Shown one piece after another: positions 13,490 through 55,179 of a stretch of 64,000 bases of DNA. The position numbers and the translations under genes were made by a program. Source of the stretch: Mucilaginibacter sp. OK098 (GTDB lineage Bacteria; Bacteroidota; Bacteroidia; Sphingobacteriales; Sphingobacteriaceae); the NCBI RefSeq assembly GCF_900142915.1, contig NZ_FRCM01000008.1, positions 248,001-312,000 of the forward strand, read 5' to 3'. The notes under the pieces are model-generated. The model saw only the letters and a program-made list of their open reading frames with translations. It had not been told where the DNA came from and made no database searches. Within the stretch, counting starts at the first letter, position 1; every line of letters starts with the position of its first letter.

Positions 13490-13636
13490 TTGATGGAAGT
13501 AGTTGATTGGGTTGATTAAGTTGGATTAGGTTGATTGAGTTAAAAAAACGCTCAACATTAACCATACACAACCACTCACTTAATAAACCCACCCTTCCTA
13601 ATCTTTCGGACTTCCGGACTTTACTGACTTTCTGAC
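13490..13636. repeat. Heptamer-type repeats, two unmatched families
   Basis: After the kinase stop, 13490-13541 holds TTGATTG/GTTGATT/AAGTTGG steps. Before the permease stop, 13603-13636 holds CTTTCGGACTTCCGGACTTT steps. The two arms belong to different families, so this spacer is not a simple hairpin. Confidence 0.65.
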
Positions 13637-16355: not shown

Positions 16356-17072
16356 ATGGCTTCAGAAAATCCCAAATCTCAAATCTCAAATCTCAAATCT
16401 TACGCTATTATTGTTGCCGGAGGTTCCGGAGCCCGCATGCAATCTGCTGTTCCAAAACAGTTTTTATTGTTATGCGGCAGGCCGGTTTTAATGCATACCA
16501 TTGAAGCTTTCCATCTCTCAGCTGTTAAACCTGCAATAATTATAGTACTTCCTGCTGAATATCACGCTTACTGGGAACAGTTATGCATAACACATAACTT
16601 TAAAATACTACATCAATTAGTAACGGGGGGCCAAACACGTTTCCATTCAGTAAAAAACGGGCTCGATATGATTGATGATGTTGATGATGCGCTTATAGCG
16701 GTACATGATGCCGTAAGGCCTTTAACCAGCGGCCAAATTATAGAAAAGTCATACCAATATACCATTGAATATGGAAATGCCGTTACAGCCGTTAAAAGCC
16801 GCGATTCCGTAAGATTAATGGAAGGCGTTGTTTCTAAAAGTTTAACCCGTGATGATGTTTACCTGGTGCAAACCCCTCAAACGTTCCAATCGGCACAAAT
16901 AAAAAAGGCTTATCAACAGGTTTACAGCGAAAAATTTACTGATGATGCCAGCGTTGTTGAAGAAACAGGTGTAAAAATTAACCTGATAGATGGAAGCCAT
17001 CAGAATATAAAGATCACCTTTCCGGAAGATCTTGCTATTGCGGAGATGATTTTGAAGAAGGTTCATAGTTGA
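16356..17072 (+). CDS. ispD: 2-C-methyl-D-erythritol 4-phosphate cytidylyltransferase
   Basis: A 238-residue enzyme of the MEP isoprenoid pathway that joins MEP to CMP. The nucleotide-binding start AIIVAGGSGARMQSAVPKQF, HDAVRPLT, LTRDDVYLVQTPQTF and DDASVVEETG are all present. Both ends are odd. The first 15 residues (MASENPKSQISNLKS) are encoded partly by four perfect CAAATCT heptamers, with no later ATG before the catalytic motif. The last residues VHS and the stop codon lie in a GTTCATA-family repeat arm. The function is not in doubt. The ispE gene of the same pathway is at 60525. Confidence 0.96.
   Translation: MASENPKSQISNLKSYAIIVAGGSGARMQSAVPKQFLLLCGRPVLMHTIEAFHLSAVKPAIIIVLPAEYHAYWEQLCITHNFKILHQLVTGGQTRFHSVKNGLDMIDDVDDALIAVHDAVRPLTSGQIIEKSYQYTIEYGNAVTAVKSRDSVRLMEGVVSKSLTRDDVYLVQTPQTFQSAQIKKAYQQVYSEKFTDDASVVEETGVKINLIDGSHQNIKITFPEDLAIAEMILKKVHS
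16373..16400. repeat. Four perfect tandem CAAATCT heptamers inside the ispD 5' end
   Basis: CAAATCT is repeated four times without a mismatch. Because 7 is not a multiple of 3, three copies make one 21-bp, seven-residue protein period (KSQISNL). It belongs to the window-wide class of heptamer repeats. Confidence 0.85.
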
Positions 17073-17130
17073 TAGTTCATGGTAGAAAATACTTATCCGG
17101 CTATGAACCATGAACTATCAACTATGAACC
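17061..17130. repeat. Inverted heptamer arms spanning the ispD stop codon
   Basis: Arm 1 at 17061-17085 (GTTCATA GTTGATA GTTCATG GTAG) contains the ispD stop codon. Arm 2 at 17101-17130 (CTATGAA CCATGAA CTATCAA CTATGAA CC) is its near-perfect inverse. The 15-bp spacer allows a long stem in RNA from either strand. Confidence 0.85.
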
Positions 17131-17136
17131 AAAAAA

Positions 17137-17286
17137 CTATGCCCTTCTGATAATTCCTAAAAGCAAAGCAATTACAGCGATTACTAAAAGAACGTGAATA
17201 AGGCCACCGCCAACCGGGTAAACGAAAAACCCAAAGATCCATCCTATTACCAGGATAACTGCGATTAAATAAAGTAAGCTTCTCAT
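17137..17286 (-). CDS. Small hydrophobic membrane protein, Lmo0937-like
   Basis: A 49-residue protein with two predicted transmembrane helices (about 3-23, LLYLIAVILVIGWIFGFFVY, and 28-46, IHVLLVIAVIALLLGIIRR) around a YPVGGG turn. This pattern matches the short Lmo0937-family membrane proteins common in Bacteroidota, often linked to stress but without known activity. The ATG at 17286 and the stop at 17137 fit exactly, and the stop lies seven bases beyond a repeat arm. Confidence 0.75.
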   Translation of the reverse strand: MRSLLYLIAVILVIGWIFGFFVYPVGGGLIHVLLVIAVIALLLGIIRRA

Positions 17287-17349
17287 GTTTGTAAAGTTTT
17301 AGTTGATAATATTTACACATTAACCAAAACCATTCCAAAAAGGGGCGAG

Positions 17350-17711: not shown

Positions 17712-17813
17712 GGTTCATGGTTAATGGTTCATAGTTCATAGTAAAAATGGCAATTAAATGGTTCAGATGCAGCTGCTATGAACTATCAACTATGAACTGT
17801 CAACTAATCAACT
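17712..17813. repeat. Inverted GTTCATG-family heptamer arms
   Basis: Arm 1 at 17712-17741 reads GGTTCAT GGTTAAT GGTTCAT AGTTCAT AG. Arm 2 at 17776-17813 reads CTATGAA CTATCAA CTATGAA CTGTCAA CTAATCA ACT and includes the stop codon of the adenosyltransferase gene on the minus strand. The loop is 34 nt. Confidence 0.85.
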
Positions 17814-18362
17814 GCCTATCCGCGGGATCCATTGATTTTCGGGGATCTTATTTTCATTTCCAATTTTCCTGGCTAAGGTAAACAGATAATCGCTTAACCT
17901 GTTTAAATAAATATTCACTTTTTCGTCCACTGTACTTTCTTCGGCCAGGTGCACAGTAATTCTTTCCGCCCTGCGGCAAACGCAACGTGCTATGTGGCAA
18001 TAAGATATTGTACTGCTTCCACCCGGCAAAATAAAATGACGCAGTTCCGGCAATTGTTCATTCATAGCATCCATTTCCTGTTCAAGCAATTCAATGTCAG
18101 CAAGGTGAAGATCAGGTATTACCATCCGTGATTTTTCAGGATCAGCAGCCAGTGACGATCCGATAGTAAACAGCCTGTCTTGTATTTGTTTCAAGATCTC
18201 TTTATCATGCGGCGTAATATCCTGGTCGCTTATCAGCCCAATGTATGAATTAAGTTCGTCAACAGTTCCATAACTTTCAATCCTGATATGGTGCTTAGCT
18301 ACCCGCGTACCGCCAATTAACGATGTAAGGCCTTTATCGCCTGTTTTTGTATAGATCTTCAT
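17808..18362 (-). CDS. Cob(I)yrinic acid a,c-diamide adenosyltransferase, PduO type
   Basis: A 184-residue cytosolic enzyme that transfers the adenosyl group of ATP to cob(I)alamin to make coenzyme B12. The N-terminal P-loop-like signature KIYTKTGDKGLTSLIGGTRV, VDELNSYIG, the RLFTIGSSLA region, FILPGGS and the Arg-rich CHIARCVCRRAERI are the standard PduO/MMAB motifs. The final residues GS and the stop codon are shared with a heptamer repeat arm. No other cobalamin gene is nearby; the enzyme probably serves B12-dependent enzymes elsewhere. Confidence 0.94.
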   Translation of the reverse strand: MKIYTKTGDKGLTSLIGGTRVAKHHIRIESYGTVDELNSYIGLISDQDITPHDKEILKQIQDRLFTIGSSLAADPEKSRMVIPDLHLADIELLEQEMDAMNEQLPELRHFILPGGSSTISYCHIARCVCRRAERITVHLAEESTVDEKVNIYLNRLSDYLFTLARKIGNENKIPENQWIPRIGS

Positions 18363-24558: not shown

Positions 24559-24606
24559 ACTTTTTTTTGATTTGACTGTAGTGGGGTATGTTTTGTTACA
24601 GGTAGA

Positions 24607-24740
24607 AGTCAGAAAAGTCGGAAAGTCCGGAAGTCCGAAAGATTATTTGATCATCTTATTACTCAACATTTAATTTTTCGTCTTTCGGACTTCCGGACTT
24701 TACTGACTTTCGGTCTTCCCTTCTTACTGACTCTCAGACT
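24607..24740. repeat. Inverted AGTCCGGA-family arms reaching into gatC
   Basis: Arm 1 at 24607-24642 (AGTC at 8-9 bp steps: AGTCGGAA AGTCCGGA AGTCCGAA) is matched by arm 2 from 24681 (TCTTTCGGACTTCCGGACTTT, then further ACTGACTTTCGG steps). Arm 2 continues into the end of gatC, whose last residues KSESQ are encoded by AAGTCTGAGAGTCAG. The loop is about 38 nt. Confidence 0.8.
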
Positions 24741-25029
24741 TCAAATCTATCACCTTAGCCACTAAAAAATAATCATCGTCATGTTTAGGAGCATTTTGTA
24801 AAGCTTCCTGGTGGGTTACCTGCTGCTTAACTATATCCTCTCTTAAAACATTTACTTCATTGGTCATATAAACAAGCGGTTCAATGCCCGAAGTATCAAT
24901 TTCATTAAGCTTAGCCATAAAATCAAGGATCTTGCTCATATCCTTTATCATTTCCTGCTTTTCGTCGCCACTAAGCTCCAAACGGGCAAGGTGTGCTATT
25001 TTATCAACTGTTTCCTGGTCGATGGTCAT
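24724..25029 (-). CDS. gatC: Aspartyl/glutamyl-tRNA(Asn/Gln) amidotransferase subunit C
   Basis: A 101-residue subunit that belts GatA and GatB together in the transamidation route to Gln-tRNA(Gln) or Asn-tRNA(Asn). The start MTIDQETVDKIAHLARLELS, a middle ILDFMAKLNEIDTSGIEPL and VLREDIV are family hallmarks. Its start overlaps the end of plsC by 4 bp (ATGA), so the two are translationally linked. The C-terminal residues are part of a repeat arm, and GatC tails vary, so function is unlikely to suffer. gatA and gatB are not in the window. Confidence 0.93.
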   Translation of the reverse strand: MTIDQETVDKIAHLARLELSGDEKQEMIKDMSKILDFMAKLNEIDTSGIEPLVYMTNEVNVLREDIVKQQVTHQEALQNAPKHDDDYFLVAKVIDLKSESQ

Positions 25030-26591: not shown

Positions 26592-27587
26592 ATGGAAACT
26601 GTTGTTAGTGGTATTCGTTCAACCGGGAACTTACACTTAGGAAATTATTACGGGGCAATACAAAATTTTGTAAAAATGCAGCATGAATATAACTGCTATT
26701 TTTTTATTGCCGATTTGCATTCGTTAACTACGCACCCCACCCCTGCCGATCTGCATGGGAATGTAAAGCAGGTGCTGGTTGAATATTTAGCCGCAGGTAT
26801 TGATCCTGAAAGAGCTACCATTTATATCCAATCTGATGTACCGGAAACCTCTGAATTATATCTTTATTTAAACATGAACGCCTATTTGGGCGAACTGGAA
26901 CGCGCAACATCATTTAAGGATAAGGTACGTGCTAATCCCGATAATGTAAACGCCGGATTATTGACTTACCCGGTGTTAATGGCTGCCGATATTATTCTCC
27001 ACAAGGCAACAAAAGTACCTGTTGGTAAAGACCAGGAACAACACCTGGAAATGTCACGTACGTTTGCTAACCGTTTTAACAGGCTTTATAATAAAGATTA
27101 TTTCCCCGAGCCTTATGCTTTCAACTTTAGTGATAACCTGGTAAAAATCCCGGGACTTGACGGTAAAGGAAAAATGGGTAAGTCAGAAGGTGAAGGAAAT
27201 GCGGTTTACCTTTCAGATTCGCCGGAAATTATTCGCAAAAAAGTTATGCGGGCAGTTACTGACGGCGGCCCCACAGCTGATAACCAGGAAAAACCTGTAG
27301 AGATCCAAAACCTGTTCGATATTATAAAAGTTGTTTCGTCTGCCGATACTTATGAGCATTTTGATAACCTCTATAATACCTGTCAGATCCGCTATGGCGA
27401 CCTTAAAAAACAGCTTGCCGAAGATATAATTATTGCCACAGCCCCTATCCGCGAGAAGATCAATGATATATCACAGGATGCATCATACCTGCGCCAGGTT
27501 GCGCGCCATGGAGCTATAAAAGCACGTGAAAGCGCATCAAAAACCATTAAGGAAGTAAGAGAAATCATAGGCTTTAAGAACTTTTGA
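26592..27587 (+). CDS. trpS: Tryptophanyl-tRNA synthetase
   Basis: A 331-residue class-I synthetase that charges tRNA(Trp). The start METVVSGIRSTGNLHLGNYYGA contains the HIGH-like motif (NLHLGNYYG) and is preferred over an in-frame upstream ATG that lies inside the plsC leader. KMGKSEGEGNAVYLSDSP supplies the KMSKS-like loop. Length and order fit the family. The gene stands alone, is followed by a heptamer repeat spacer and diverges from plsC. Confidence 0.97.
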   Translation: METVVSGIRSTGNLHLGNYYGAIQNFVKMQHEYNCYFFIADLHSLTTHPTPADLHGNVKQVLVEYLAAGIDPERATIYIQSDVPETSELYLYLNMNAYLGELERATSFKDKVRANPDNVNAGLLTYPVLMAADIILHKATKVPVGKDQEQHLEMSRTFANRFNRLYNKDYFPEPYAFNFSDNLVKIPGLDGKGKMGKSEGEGNAVYLSDSPEIIRKKVMRAVTDGGPTADNQEKPVEIQNLFDIIKVVSSADTYEHFDNLYNTCQIRYGDLKKQLAEDIIIATAPIREKINDISQDASYLRQVARHGAIKARESASKTIKEVREIIGFKNF

Positions 27588-27795
27588 GTTGGCTGATAGT
27601 TAATGGTTCATAGTTCATGGCTAGAAAAAAAGCAATTCATTGTTGATAGTTCATGGTGCATGCTGTATATTAGTCGGAGTTTCATTTCAGCACAAATAGC
27701 AAATGCATATTAAAATTGAGCTTAAAACCATTAACTATCATCTGTTAACCACGAGCTTTCTGCTATGAACTATGAACCATTAACCATGAACTAAC
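27588..27795. repeat. Inverted GTTCATG-family heptamer arms filling the trpS-dNK spacer
   Basis: G-rich arms begin immediately after the trpS stop (27588-27624 and 27640-27665: GATAGTT AATGGTT CATAGTT CATGG). The inverted arms CCATTAACTATC and CTATGAA CTATGAA CCATTAA CCATGAA CTAAC occupy 27726-27795 and end on the base before the kinase ATG, so they form its 5' leader. About 60 nt in the middle are unrelated. Confidence 0.85.
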
Positions 27796-28439: not shown

Positions 28440-29090
28440 ATGAAAAAATATCATCTCGTCTTAGTAACTCTCTTCCTTCTGATCGAATGTGAATCAGCAC
28501 CGGCTATCTTCAAACAACAAAATAACTGGCAGCAACTGAATTTAGGGCCGTTTAAAATTTCTGTTCCACAAAATTGGAAATATGAAGATCCCGGAGAACA
28601 GGAAGATTCATTTGTTGGACAAATCACTGGACCGCAATTACAATTATCCTTTGATTATAGTGGAATGGGCTATGCTAATCATTTGCTAAAAACAGAAAAA
28701 GAGTACCTGGATAGTCGCGGGTGGTGGGATCATCGTCTCACTTTTCCTTATTGGGGAACTGAAACAAAAGTTCATCTTCCGGATCAGTTACAAAAAACTA
28801 AATTCCCAAAAGCTAATTACATTGCTGATCTAACTTATAAGGGAAAGACCGTGTATCTACCTATTGAAATTCCAGCTTTCATCAAAGAGAACAACATCCA
28901 GGTAGACAGTGATAAAATGTATGTTACAAAAACTATTTGGTCAAAAACTCCGGGAAAAGGCATGACTGGTATTTATATTCATAGCAGATCATCGAGTTTG
29001 AATTTTCAAATGAGTGGATCTAATCTGTCAGCAGAAAATCAAAAATTAGCATTATTGGCTTTTAAAACAATTCATCTTAAAAACAAATGA
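28440..29090 (+). CDS. Putative exported lipoprotein-like protein, unknown function
   Basis: About 216 residues. MKKYHLVLVTLFLLIECES is a signal peptide with a Cys in lipobox position, though the preceding Glu is unusual. The mature part starts with NWQQLNLGPFKISVPQNWKYEDPG, a pattern seen in small beta-sandwich proteins, and ends with KLALLAFKTIHLKNK. I do not recognise a defined family. The ATG at 28440 is chosen over a TTG at 28413. Its stop codon overlaps the kdsB start (ATGA), so the two are cotranscribed, but no functional link to LPS synthesis is shown. Confidence 0.7.
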   Translation: MKKYHLVLVTLFLLIECESAPAIFKQQNNWQQLNLGPFKISVPQNWKYEDPGEQEDSFVGQITGPQLQLSFDYSGMGYANHLLKTEKEYLDSRGWWDHRLTFPYWGTETKVHLPDQLQKTKFPKANYIADLTYKGKTVYLPIEIPAFIKENNIQVDSDKMYVTKTIWSKTPGKGMTGIYIHSRSSSLNFQMSGSNLSAENQKLALLAFKTIHLKNK

Positions 29091-29818
29091 AAATCCTTGG
29101 CATCATCCCCGCCCGCTTCGCTTCAACCCGTTTTCCGGGCAAGCCATTAGTGGATATTGCCGGTAAAAGCATGATTCAGAGGGTTTATGAGCAGGCTAAA
29201 AAATGTATTCATTTAACAGAAGTTATTGTTGCTACTGACGACACCCGCATTTATGACCATGTATTAAGCTTTGGCGGCGTAGCCATAATGACCTCCGCCG
29301 ATCATCAAAGCGGTACCGACCGCTGTGCCGAAGTAGCCCTGCAGCACCCGCAATATAATGTAATCATCAATATTCAGGGTGATGAACCTTATATCGACCC
29401 GGAACAGATCAGCAAAGTAGCTTCCTGTTTTAACAATGCCGATACACAGCTTGCTACTTTGGTTAAGAAGATCCAGAATGAGCAGGAGTTGTTTAATGTA
29501 AATTCGCCAAAGGTGGTTATCAATAAACTATCCGAGGCTGTTTACTTTTCCCGCTCACCGCTCCCCCACATCCGCGGACAGGAGCAGCAAAACTGGCTAA
29601 GCCATTTCACCTACTTTAAACATATTGGGATCTACGGTTATCGTGCTGATGTTTTGCAGGAGGTAACTAAGCTCCCGGTATCATCCCTCGAAAAAGCCGA
29701 AAGCCTTGAACAATTGCGCTGGATTGAAAATGGCTACCGCATTAAAGTGGCGGAAACTGAACTGGAAACTTATGCGATTGATACGCCTGAGGATTTGGCT
29801 AATTTGAAGATGAGTTGA
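29087..29818 (+). CDS. kdsB: 3-deoxy-manno-octulosonate (KDO) cytidylyltransferase
   Basis: A 243-residue enzyme that activates KDO as CMP-KDO for lipid A-core synthesis. The signature IIPARFASTRFPGKPL, EVIVATDD, SADHQSGTDRCAEV, NIQGDEPYIDP and FKHIGIYGYRADVL are all present. It overlaps the preceding gene by 4 bp. Its last residues MS and the stop codon lie in a TTGATTTGA-type repeat arm. It belongs with the heptose genes at 44-48 kb in LPS-core synthesis. Confidence 0.96.
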   Translation: MKILGIIPARFASTRFPGKPLVDIAGKSMIQRVYEQAKKCIHLTEVIVATDDTRIYDHVLSFGGVAIMTSADHQSGTDRCAEVALQHPQYNVIINIQGDEPYIDPEQISKVASCFNNADTQLATLVKKIQNEQELFNVNSPKVVINKLSEAVYFSRSPLPHIRGQEQQNWLSHFTYFKHIGIYGYRADVLQEVTKLPVSSLEKAESLEQLRWIENGYRIKVAETELETYAIDTPEDLANLKMS

Positions 29819-29898
29819 TTTGATGATTTGAAAATTCGTTTTGCAAGCATTTGATTTCCACTTTCAAATTTCCAAATCATAAAATTTTCAAATCAATT
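29813..29898. repeat. Inverted TTTGATGATTTGAAAAT repeat after kdsB
   Basis: Arm 1 at 29813-29836 contains the kdsB stop codon. Arm 2 at 29861-29898 (TTTCAAATTTCC AAATCAT AAAATTTTCAAATCAA) is its inverse. The loop is about 24 nt. Confidence 0.7.
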
Positions 29899-39688: not shown

Positions 39689-39821
39689 AGAGATTAGTTA
39701 ATTAGAGGTTAGAGATTAGAGATTAGTTTTAAAACCTAAAAAAGGAATTATCAAGGCATAGAAGAAGTAAGCGCAACAGCTTTTTTCTTACTAATCTCTA
39801 ATCTCCAGCCTCTAATCTCTA
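39689..39821. repeat. Inverted TTAGAGA-family heptamer arms between convergent genes
   Basis: Arm 1 at 39689-39727 starts at the first base after the purS stop and steps as GAGATTA GTTAATT AGAGGTT AGAGATT AGAGATT AG. Arm 2 at 39791-39821 (CTAATCT CTAATCT CCAGCCT CTAATCT CTA) is the inverse and ends one base before the Hpt gene stop. The loop is about 63 nt. Confidence 0.88.
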
Positions 39822-44317: not shown

Positions 44318-44422
44318 TCAGAGGCTAGAGATTAGAAATCAGTCGGAAAAGTCCGGAAAGTCTGAAAGAAAAAAGGATGGATGCAATAGTACCAATGACC
44401 TAATGACAAATGACCAATGACC
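44318..44422. repeat. Mosaic of three repeat families ending inside hldA
   Basis: From the base after the PolX-like stop: CAGAGGC TAGAGAT TAGAAAT, then CAGTCGG AAAAGTC CGGAAAG TCTGAAA (to 44370), and after a unique 20 nt ACCAATG ACCTAAT GACAAAT GACCAAT GACC (44391-44422). The hldA start codon ATG at 44417 is part of the last repeat unit. Confidence 0.8.
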
Positions 44423-45397
44423 ATATTAGATAAAGTACGATCCATACAGTCATCACAAAAACAGCCTTCAATTTTGGTTATAGGCGACCTAATGATTGAC
44501 CATTATATTTGGGGCAATGCCACACGCCTATCACCAGAGGCGCCTGTGCCTATAGTAAATGTAAAGAATGAGTCGACAACGCTGGGTGGCGCGGGTAATG
44601 TTGTTCAAAACCTGGTGTCACTTGGTGCAAACGTTACCGTTGCCGGGGTGATTGGTGACGATACAATGGGAAATCAGCTAATTGGAATATTAGAGGCTGA
44701 GGGTGTTACAACCGATACTATTATTAAGGACAGTTCAAGGCCCACAACAGTTAAAACCCGTGTTTTAGCCGGAAGGCATCAGCTGGTAAGGATTGATAAG
44801 GAAGTTACCGATGCAGTTTCCGTTTTAATAGCTAATGAGCTTACTGATAAGCTTGTTGAAATTATCGATAGTGCAGATATCATCATCTTCTCTGATTATA
44901 ATAAAGGTTTATTTTCACCAGCGCTTACTCAACGACTAATAAAAATCGCCAATGATCATCAAAAAAAGGTAATTATTGACCCTAAAGGGCTGAATTACGA
45001 AAAGTATAATGGGGCCTATTTAATAAAACCCAACCGGAAAGAACTGGCCGAAGCAGCTAAAACCGAATCGATAAAAAACATTGCAGAACTACAGGAGGCG
45101 GCGAAAACTATTTTTGAACAAACCCAAACCACTTATTTAGTTGTAACCCTTTCGGAAGAAGGGATGGCAATTATCACTGAGCAAACCAGTAAATTACTGC
45201 CCGTAAAAGCAAGGGAGGTTTTTGATGTTACCGGTGCCGGTGATACAGTTATAGCTGCTATTGCTTATTTTATAGCATCCGGATTCACTGTTGAGGAAGC
45301 TTGCGACCTTGCCAATCATGCCGCAGCAATAGTGGTAAGGCATGTGGGCAGCGCAACTACAACAATTGATGAAATTGTAAAAGACATGACTGAATAG
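44417..45397 (+). CDS. hldA: D-glycero-beta-D-manno-heptose-7-phosphate kinase
   Basis: A 326-residue PfkB/ribokinase-fold enzyme equal to the N-terminal half of HldE. ILVIGDLMIDHYIWGNATRLSPEAPVPIV, LGGAGNVVQNL and the ATP-site DVTGAGDTVIAAIAYF with the catalytic Asp identify the heptose kinase. It makes heptose 1,7-bisphosphate for the LPS inner core. In this organism the kinase and the adenylyltransferase (46189) are separate genes with gmhA between them. The ATG lies inside a CCAATGA-type repeat, so MTI is repeat-derived. Confidence 0.95.
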   Translation: MTILDKVRSIQSSQKQPSILVIGDLMIDHYIWGNATRLSPEAPVPIVNVKNESTTLGGAGNVVQNLVSLGANVTVAGVIGDDTMGNQLIGILEAEGVTTDTIIKDSSRPTTVKTRVLAGRHQLVRIDKEVTDAVSVLIANELTDKLVEIIDSADIIIFSDYNKGLFSPALTQRLIKIANDHQKKVIIDPKGLNYEKYNGAYLIKPNRKELAEAAKTESIKNIAELQEAAKTIFEQTQTTYLVVTLSEEGMAIITEQTSKLLPVKAREVFDVTGAGDTVIAAIAYFIASGFTVEEACDLANHAAAIVVRHVGSATTTIDEIVKDMTE

Positions 45398-49004: not shown

Positions 49005-49170
49005 TCATTGGGCAATTGTCATTAGTCATTTGTAATTAGCTCGTAAGAATTTATCACTAACTTGTATAGCCAAAAATCCAATGACCAATGACCAATGACC
49101 AATGACCAATGACCAATGACCAATGACCAATGACCAATGACCAATGACCAATGACCAATGACCAATGACC
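49002..49170. repeat. CCAATGA heptamer array with inverted degenerate arm
   Basis: Arm 2 at 49078-49170 is 13 perfect, uninterrupted copies of CCAATGA plus CC, ending two bases before the dprA stop codon. Arm 1 at 49002-49040 begins at the sixA stop codon itself and reads as 7-bp steps in inverse orientation (TCATTGG GCAATTG TCATTAG TCATTTG TAATTAG). About 38 nt separate the arms. It is the cleanest array of the window-wide heptamer class. Confidence 0.95.
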
Positions 49171-55060: not shown

Positions 55061-55179
55061 TTGTTAAAAATTGTTGGAAAGTTGTAAGGTTATAAGGTTG
55101 TAATGTTAAATAAATCAAAAGATTCGCTCACATATTCATAACATTTTAACCTTACAACATTCCAGCCTTACAACATAAT
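55061..55179. repeat. Inverted GTTGTAAG-family repeats between divergent genes
   Basis: Arm 1 at 55061-55107 steps by 8 bp (GTTGGAAA GTTGTAAG GTTATAAG GTTGTAAT GTTA). Arm 2 at 55139-55179 (ATAACATTTTAACC TTACAACATTCC AGCCTTACAACAT) is the inverse. The loop is about 31 nt. Confidence 0.8.

Follow-up and report, generated by a model that had tools for sequence, protein, structure and literature searches.

Heptamer repeat arrays at gene ends in Mucilaginibacter and their probable part in changing protein termini

The window analysed here, a stretch of 64 kb out of the 7.21-Mb genome of Mucilaginibacter sp. OK098 (23 contigs), carries the genes for IspD, AdoT (cob(I)yrinic acid a,c-diamide adenosyltransferase), GatC, KdsB and HldA, whose identities were all confirmed with NCBIfam and Pfam. 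The nearest named relatives of this IspD belong to Mucilaginibacter, with 92% identity to the MAG RYN_326. Short tandem repeats and palindromes lie at or near the ends of these genes (Table 1), and an earlier note on this DNA had proposed that they encode both ends of IspD and one end of each of the other four proteins. No Rfam family was matched at its gathering threshold within the 64-kb window. Genome-wide counts were made on a sample of 1.57 Mb (contig C2 whole, 400 kb of C4 and 800 kb of C10), in which a simple coding-score caller gave 1272 genes; this caller often misplaces starts, and put that of ispD at 16491. Relatives were compared using one assembly per species.

Table 1. Genes, arrays and palindromes in the window (positions counted from its first letter)
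Feature	Position	Strand	Remarks
ispD CDS	16356..17072	+	sole canonical start ATG 16356; stop TGA within repeat arm
CAAATCT array, read as ispD residues ~6-15	16367..16400	+	tandem-repeat call, score 61
Left arm, GTTCATA family, with ispD stop TGA 17070-17072	17060..17083	+	RNA fold z = -9.6
Right arm, complementary to 17060-17083	17107..17130	+	adjoins stop of convergent 50-aa ORF
50-aa ORF	17137-17290	-	convergent with ispD; conserved in relatives; no Pfam match; missed by gene caller
Palindrome at AdoT 3' end, inserted	17713..17804		arms 17713-17741 and 17776-17804
AdoT gene	17808..18362	-	last residues GS and stop come from repeat DNA
AGTCCGAAA-type palindrome adjoining gatC stop	24605..24718		arms 24605-24642 and 24681-24718
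gatC	24724..25029	-	tail KSESQ repeat-like, common to 3 close relatives
GTTCATA palindrome	27588..27795		fills gap after one gene, ends 4 nt ahead of next start
kdsB	29087..29818	+	stop in weak imperfect arm 29812-29836
TTAGAGA palindrome	39701..39816		between convergent genes; RNA fold z = -6.6
ATGACC array with hldA start codon at 44417	44391..44423	+	tandem-repeat call
hldA (D-glycero-beta-D-manno-heptose-7-phosphate kinase)	44417..45397	+	
13 perfect CCAATGA units	49078..49170	+	between two convergent genes
GTTGTAA palindrome	55081..55174		RNA fold z = -6.8

We identified 91 period-7 arrays in the 1.57 Mb (28, 37 and 26 in its three stretches, with +1/-1 scoring and a score of at least 13, the same for every period), against 0, 0 and 0 in simulated sequence, for which one order-3 Markov sequence was generated per stretch. 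Periods 8 and 9 were raised too, with 47 and 42 arrays at the same threshold, and the totals at periods 5, 6, 10, 11 and 13 were 2, 13, 15, 3 and 1; these period controls rule out a chance or compositional origin of the arrays. The edge of a period-7 array fell between -20 and +10 of the stop codon at 43 of 867 3' ends, compared with 14 for period 8, 12 for period 9, 5 for period 10 and none for periods 5, 6, 11, 12 and 13, and such an edge was found at 15 of 944 5' ends. Over the first 30 nt past stops, bases matched at lag 7 with a frequency of 0.32, and at lags 5, 6 and 11 with 0.27-0.28. Five loci from Daejeonella (L057, L058, L062, L064 and L070) held 18.9 period-7 arrays per 100 kb and 0 at seven other periods counted. 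Three loci from Sphingobacterium held 0 period-7 arrays.

The units belong to many families, assigned with loose patterns: GTTSATR (25 of the 91 arrays), AATGACY (16), AAAAGGY (15), AAATCCG (8), AAGAATC (6), CANATCT (4), TTAGAGR (2) and others (15). An inverted partner was found within 200 bp for 57 of 99 non-coding arrays and for 1 of 99 reversed controls, and the 50 palindromes with a detectable left-arm array had a median length of 119.5 bp and a median loop of 53.5 nt. The arrays are a genome-wide class of tandems of 7 (also 8 and 9) bases, of which about half form the arms of palindromes of about 120 bp abutting stop codons and the rest stand singly. In one genus member (L050), an intergenic GTTCATGG/GTTCATAG array lies in the gap equivalent to 13490-13636 and runs to more than 20 units.

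These elements obey a strand rule: reading on from a stop codon, the G-rich strand is met first, and a start codon is preceded by the C-rich strand. G exceeded C in the left arm of all 50 palindromes in this genome and of 41 of the 44 from other species. Similarly, arrays abutting stops had more G than C in 62 of 69 cases (equal in 6, the reverse in 1), and those abutting starts had more C than G in 38 of 39. Array-free flanks showed a much weaker lean in the same directions, with G above C past 402 of 763 stops (293 the reverse, 68 equal) and C above G ahead of 561 of 872 starts (231 the reverse, 80 equal).

At the 5' end of ispD, four CAAATCT units at 16373-16400 encode KSQISNLKS, about nine of the 15 residues ahead of the conserved core, which begins at Y16; the reading of this N-terminus in the earlier note was correct. 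The codons from ATG 16356 to the core read MASENPKSQISNLKS, the last nine coming from the four CAAATCT units. This ATG is preceded, 9 nt upstream, by an in-frame TGA, and no ATG, GTG or TTG occurs between the ATG and a methionine 12 codons inside the core, so that any IspD made from a canonical start must include the tail. In the AlphaFold model (16 sequences, mean pLDDT 89.6), residues 1-9 have pLDDT below 50 and the first strand spans residues 14-20; in this model the repeat would reach, and slightly enter, the first strand.

The leader is not particular to this genome. We found a period-7 segment (score of at least 9) directly before the IspD core in 26 of 36 distinct genus members, where 0.94 were expected; at each other period, no more than one of the 36 had such a segment. 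The units vary by species, and include CAAATCT, CACATCT/CATATCT, CCGAAAT (L020), ACAACAG (L017) and CTAACTA (L027). Ten of the 36 scored below 9, including M. phenanthrenivorans and M. flavidus, which have 7-residue tails. In 13 outgroup genomes, ispD starts 3 or 6 codons ahead of the core (MKY or similar), and the one array among them (Hufsiella) is located upstream of the start. Thus, what had been taken for an entry of the repeat into the 5' end of ispD in this genome is instead a genus-wide leader. The tail residues do follow the repeat when relatives are aligned, as those without a leader array (L042, L043) also lack them; the finding named in the earlier note as a refutation, the same residues kept in repeat-free relatives, did not appear.

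These data bear on two further explanations. The tails might be ordinary coding sequence that is repetitive by accident, since residues outside a conserved core vary anyway, and kdsB and part of gatC (below) would fit; the 26 leaders with period 7 and the near absence of other periods, together with the single, untranslated outgroup array, make this hardly credible. Alternatively, the number of units might switch the frame of ispD or its neighbours by phase variation, which accords with 7-nt units shifting the frame and with unit indels in 3' arms between close relatives. We consider this very improbable, given that the window, L039, L040 and L041 all place the ispD start at -45, with no difference in leader length, and that one ispD copy was found in the genome. 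In our preferred reading, the ispD array is C-rich and typical of those found beside starts, but sits downstream of the start codon and would therefore be translated. Among 18 candidate entries from the 1272 genes, five, ispD included, have the start upstream of the array, and translated leaders of this type seem rare. Elsewhere in this genome, in the region C10:449348-449848, a GTGCTTT-type period-7 stretch may code for part of a signal-peptide-like N-terminus.

The stop codon of ispD lies, as had been noted, inside a GTTCATA-family arm, which reads GTTCATAGTTGATAG and is half of a 24-bp perfect inverted repeat. In many relatives the protein ends in KKPQL or similar, on what appears by eye to be the stem of an intrinsic terminator. 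The C-terminus has therefore changed, as proposed, but by replacement and not by extension, the heptamer-free relatives ending on this terminator-like stem.

This arrangement raises the possibility that the palindromes serve as hairpins at 3' ends. In the stronger form of this explanation, they would be selected hairpins that stop transcription or protect mRNA, and their overlap with stop codons would reflect compact gene ends. Beyond the position at ispD, where the palindrome stands in place of the terminator-like hairpin of other species, arrays and terminator-like sites weakly avoid each other, the latter occurring at 4 of 110 3' ends that have an array and at 70 of 681 that have none (p = 0.022), and four of five folded palindrome regions are far stabler than shuffled sequences (z = -9.6, -4.0, -6.6 and -6.8); the fifth stretch (27580-27720), which was cut ahead of its partner arm, gave z = +1.2. 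On the sense strand, however, AAAAAA and no T run follows the ispD palindrome. In 35 of 48 cases an element edge comes within 10 nt of a 3' end, where uniform placement in the same gaps would give 21.7, but there is no excess of palindromes in gaps that hold a 3' end; divergent gaps contain 9 of 50 palindromes and make up 149 of 754 gaps overall, so they are not avoided, as a terminator role would not predict. Specificity for 3' ends of the kind seen in terminators was accordingly rejected, the context counts equalling background although edges abut 3' ends. Nor are the arms matched to each other beyond the level of the family, with a match of 18.3 to their own partner and 18.2 to arms of other elements of the family, and the own partner best in 4 of 38 cases (5.2 expected). 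We therefore rejected selection for keeping arms complementary, and these values disfavour fine selection on pairing. Overall, selection as 3'-end hairpins is a serious possibility, although we lean against it.

For AdoT, we identified a filled and an empty form of the same site. Of 31 loci (among which near copies may be included), 23, those of Daejeonella among them, have 67-73 nt between codon 177 and a conserved -10-like motif; five (the window, L039, L041, L042 and L043) have 174-224 nt and one, with a non-heptamer insert, has 140 nt, while two were not measurable. Counting the window and 18 loci from named records, 6 are filled, 12 are empty and 1 has another insert (L047), with genomes grouped by gap length as the automatic array flag is too strict and missed ispD in the window and AdoT in L040 and L041. 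After the WxPR motif, the 13 genomes without the palindrome encode exactly one residue and then stop; the six filled genomes encode IGS, IGS, MGS, TNS, SS and G (3, 3, 3, 3, 2 and 1 residues), so that the palindrome moved the stop 0-2 residues beyond the conserved end. In a tree of four proteins the filled genomes cluster with weak support (62), four of them with 92 and three with 100.

A TAA past the element resembles, by eye, the native stop, which suggests that the palindrome entered at the native stop and that the native TAA probably remains on its far side. The units at this site are of the GTTCATA family in the window, L039, L042 and L043 and of the GTTGATTA family in L040 and L041, a pattern that, as far as the sequences tell, would need at least two changes on the tree, or recombination. 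The claim that repeats alter protein termini is upheld here by a dated insertion, with differing tails in the filled genomes and the GS-stop end of the window's enzyme supplied by repeat DNA. From the genomes compared, AdoT appears to be the sole clear gain of a repeat element. Of the proposed spread of repeats up to the limit tolerated by the protein, a gain is seen at this gene; spread itself would be an extrapolation.

Such filled and empty sites are also what would be expected of mobile DNA of the REP or MITE type moved by a transposase, and palindromes in several families are dispersed through a genome with three strong and three weak matches to Y1 transposases. A heptamer array, itself weak, occurs near only one of these six loci, and two RAYT-like copies bear a different palindrome. 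Of 100 element ends, 16 had the tag GTAG/GGAG (against 5 of 100 inside arms) and none had CGTC, and one strand rule is obeyed by many unrelated units. Lacking an end tag, and with heptamers at the Y1 loci limited to one weak array, transposase-driven REP elements were rejected as the source, and movement of this kind is, in our assessment, unlikely. The two near-identical RAYT-like Y1 genes (L322 at C10:1370983 and L323 at C7:495017) are flanked by a palindrome of their own (about TTCAAGCGGGACGCTTGAA), unrelated to the heptamers.

The remaining termini named in the earlier note gave mixed results. The hldA start ATG does lie within the ATGACC array, which also supplies an in-frame TGA two codons upstream. 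Across 17 hldA loci, five have an array (score of at least 9) holding the start ATG at -12, and L293 and L196 look similar by eye. In seven loci the start is at -9, and in one of these, L201, a period-7 array lies outside it; the others start at -12 without an array (L202), at -15 (L199) and at -18 (L205). To judge from these alignments, the array ATG is real, but the one-codon longer start would not be unique to arrays. The gatC end is repeat-coded as claimed, with DLKSESQ in four of 14 genomes; it is not a regular effect of the repeats, since four of the ten short forms have arrays and keep the short EK end. The case for kdsB is weak, the arm at 29812-29836 being only 76% complementary and absent from the period-7 lists, and the 5-7 residues that follow EDL in five genomes representing an ordinary tail with no extension.

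Repeats can supply start as well as stop codons, as hldA and 19 array-covered stops demonstrate. These 19 comprise 12 TAG, 3 TGA and 4 TAA, compared with 468 TAA, 148 TAG and 132 TGA among 748 stops farther than 60 nt from any array (Fisher p = 4e-4). TAA is also less frequent where an array lies 0-10 nt (27 of 60) or 11-60 nt (14 of 40) past the stop, and part of the effect may therefore be due to local composition. Because neither 7 nor 8 is divisible by 3, a perfect array encodes one peptide cycle whatever the frame; a family consequently closes all three frames within 21 nt, as GTTCATA does, or leaves all of them open, as CAAATCT does. This identical codon cycle in each frame would allow heptamers to edit termini safely. 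No hexamer array carries a stop in each of the three frames. Enrichment of stop triplets in start-side or stop-side arrays was considered and rejected, as one is present in 32 of 38 and in 16 of 18, without contrast.

We identified changes in the arrays between relatives on two scales. Aligned with its 92% relative, the window has three 7-nt indels, two of which are single units in one arm (17072 and 17788); the partner arm is unchanged in both cases, as is the length of the ispD leader. Over 98 orthologous gaps shared with M. phenanthrenivorans, 16 hold arrays in both species, 4 in our genome only and 1 in the relative only; a comparison with M. flavidus covered 4 gaps only, from contig C12 and not from the ispD contig. 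By eye, the family changed between conserved flanks at C2_135, C2_145, C2_148 and C10_34 relative to M. phenanthrenivorans. An automatic comparison of families gave a difference at 2 of 18 sites and agreement at 16 of 18, with a cut that also passed 8 of 149 unrelated pairs.

The whole is, we think, probably best explained by repeat arrays that are gained at gene ends, slip or change family, replace the native start or stop and add short tails. Arrays would be gained at gene ends, single units would be won and lost by slippage, and the family would occasionally be switched. An array landing on, or growing across, a gene end would replace the native start or stop and add a few residues, as far as the first conserved one. 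Altered protein termini would then be a by-product. Against this explanation stand the single clear gain at AdoT, the arrays mostly common to both species in the gaps compared with M. phenanthrenivorans, and the elements themselves, among which neither a target duplication nor a common end was recognised. A bolder version, which we put forward tentatively and with some doubt, is that an undescribed process in Mucilaginibacter and its close kin places palindromes with units of 7-9 bases at gene ends and later rewrites them in place to other families, keeping the slot and the G-rich-first polarity and editing termini as a side effect.

Repeat DNA can thus rewrite the tips of conserved proteins in Mucilaginibacter: it often provides the stop and, for a small number of genes including ispD, further residues as well. 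AdoT offers a concrete filled and empty case in which an intergenic repeat has taken over the stop and final residues of a conserved enzyme; the genus has an IspD that bears a translated repeat leader with units differing among species. Palindromic elements inside Rickettsia ORFs add peptides to conserved proteins; here, unlike in Rickettsia, only termini are affected, and through tandem heptamers.

The closest likeness is to the GGGAATC and GGGGA(C/T)T heptamers of Xanthomonas and Nostoc, which, in the parts of that report used here, are intergenic, lie within 50 bp of ORFs and overlap stops, with the G-rich strand in sense after stops and in antisense before starts (PMC4692102). According to the same sections, they keep the same gene neighbours in related species, show no tie to mobile elements, consist of one quadruplex-capable G-tract unit and are under-represented between divergent genes (PMC4692102). 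The repeats described here share the over-representation of 7-nt units between genes, the closeness to ORFs, the strand rule, the stop overlap, the constant gene neighbours and the independence from mobile elements. They differ from what those sections describe in having many AT-rich units, about half of them in palindromes, in not avoiding divergent gaps and in protein-end changes traced to an insertion. None of the 91 arrays has four GGG starts on one strand. The strand rule had so far been known from G-tract repeats; since AT-rich units that lack such tracts obey it here, it cannot in general be caused by quadruplexes. The Discussion of that paper notes heptamer over-representation in bacteria without explanation (PMC4692102), and the presence of many families in one genome and in related species makes it testable.

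In the P6b region of the Nostoc trnL intron, hairpin arms are built of heptanucleotides and repeat classes are swapped between lineages, as the relevant portion of that study reports (PMC4476775). The stem arms of heptamers and the replacement of unit class at one site, as in the AdoT gap, are similar; that system is a single group I intron site in tRNA-Leu, unlike the many sites between protein genes here. TAACTGA direct repeats, described from Beggiatoaceae, Cyanobacteria and five Bacteroidetes, are likewise heptamers repeated between genes, many directly upstream of starts (PMC4679880); unlike ours, they have one fixed unit, are mostly start-side and, in the passages concerned, are not presented with emphasis on palindromes. 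That unit occurs in 1 of our 91 arrays. REP elements, including GTAG- and CGTC-tagged palindromes, are short and intergenic, with some within genes (extract of PMC3733652). They resemble ours as short palindromes scattered between genes and differ from them as, in our genome, we found no common tag and no link to Y1 transposases. No account of these repeats in Sphingobacteriaceae turned up in a literature search barely covering subscription journals. Precedents exist for heptamers close to stop codons, in Xanthomonas and Nostoc, and for hairpins of heptamers in which one class replaces another, in Nostoc trnL; relative to the print we found, the AT-rich palindromes in multiple families, the exchange of family at a fixed site and the filled and empty evidence of changed protein ends are new.
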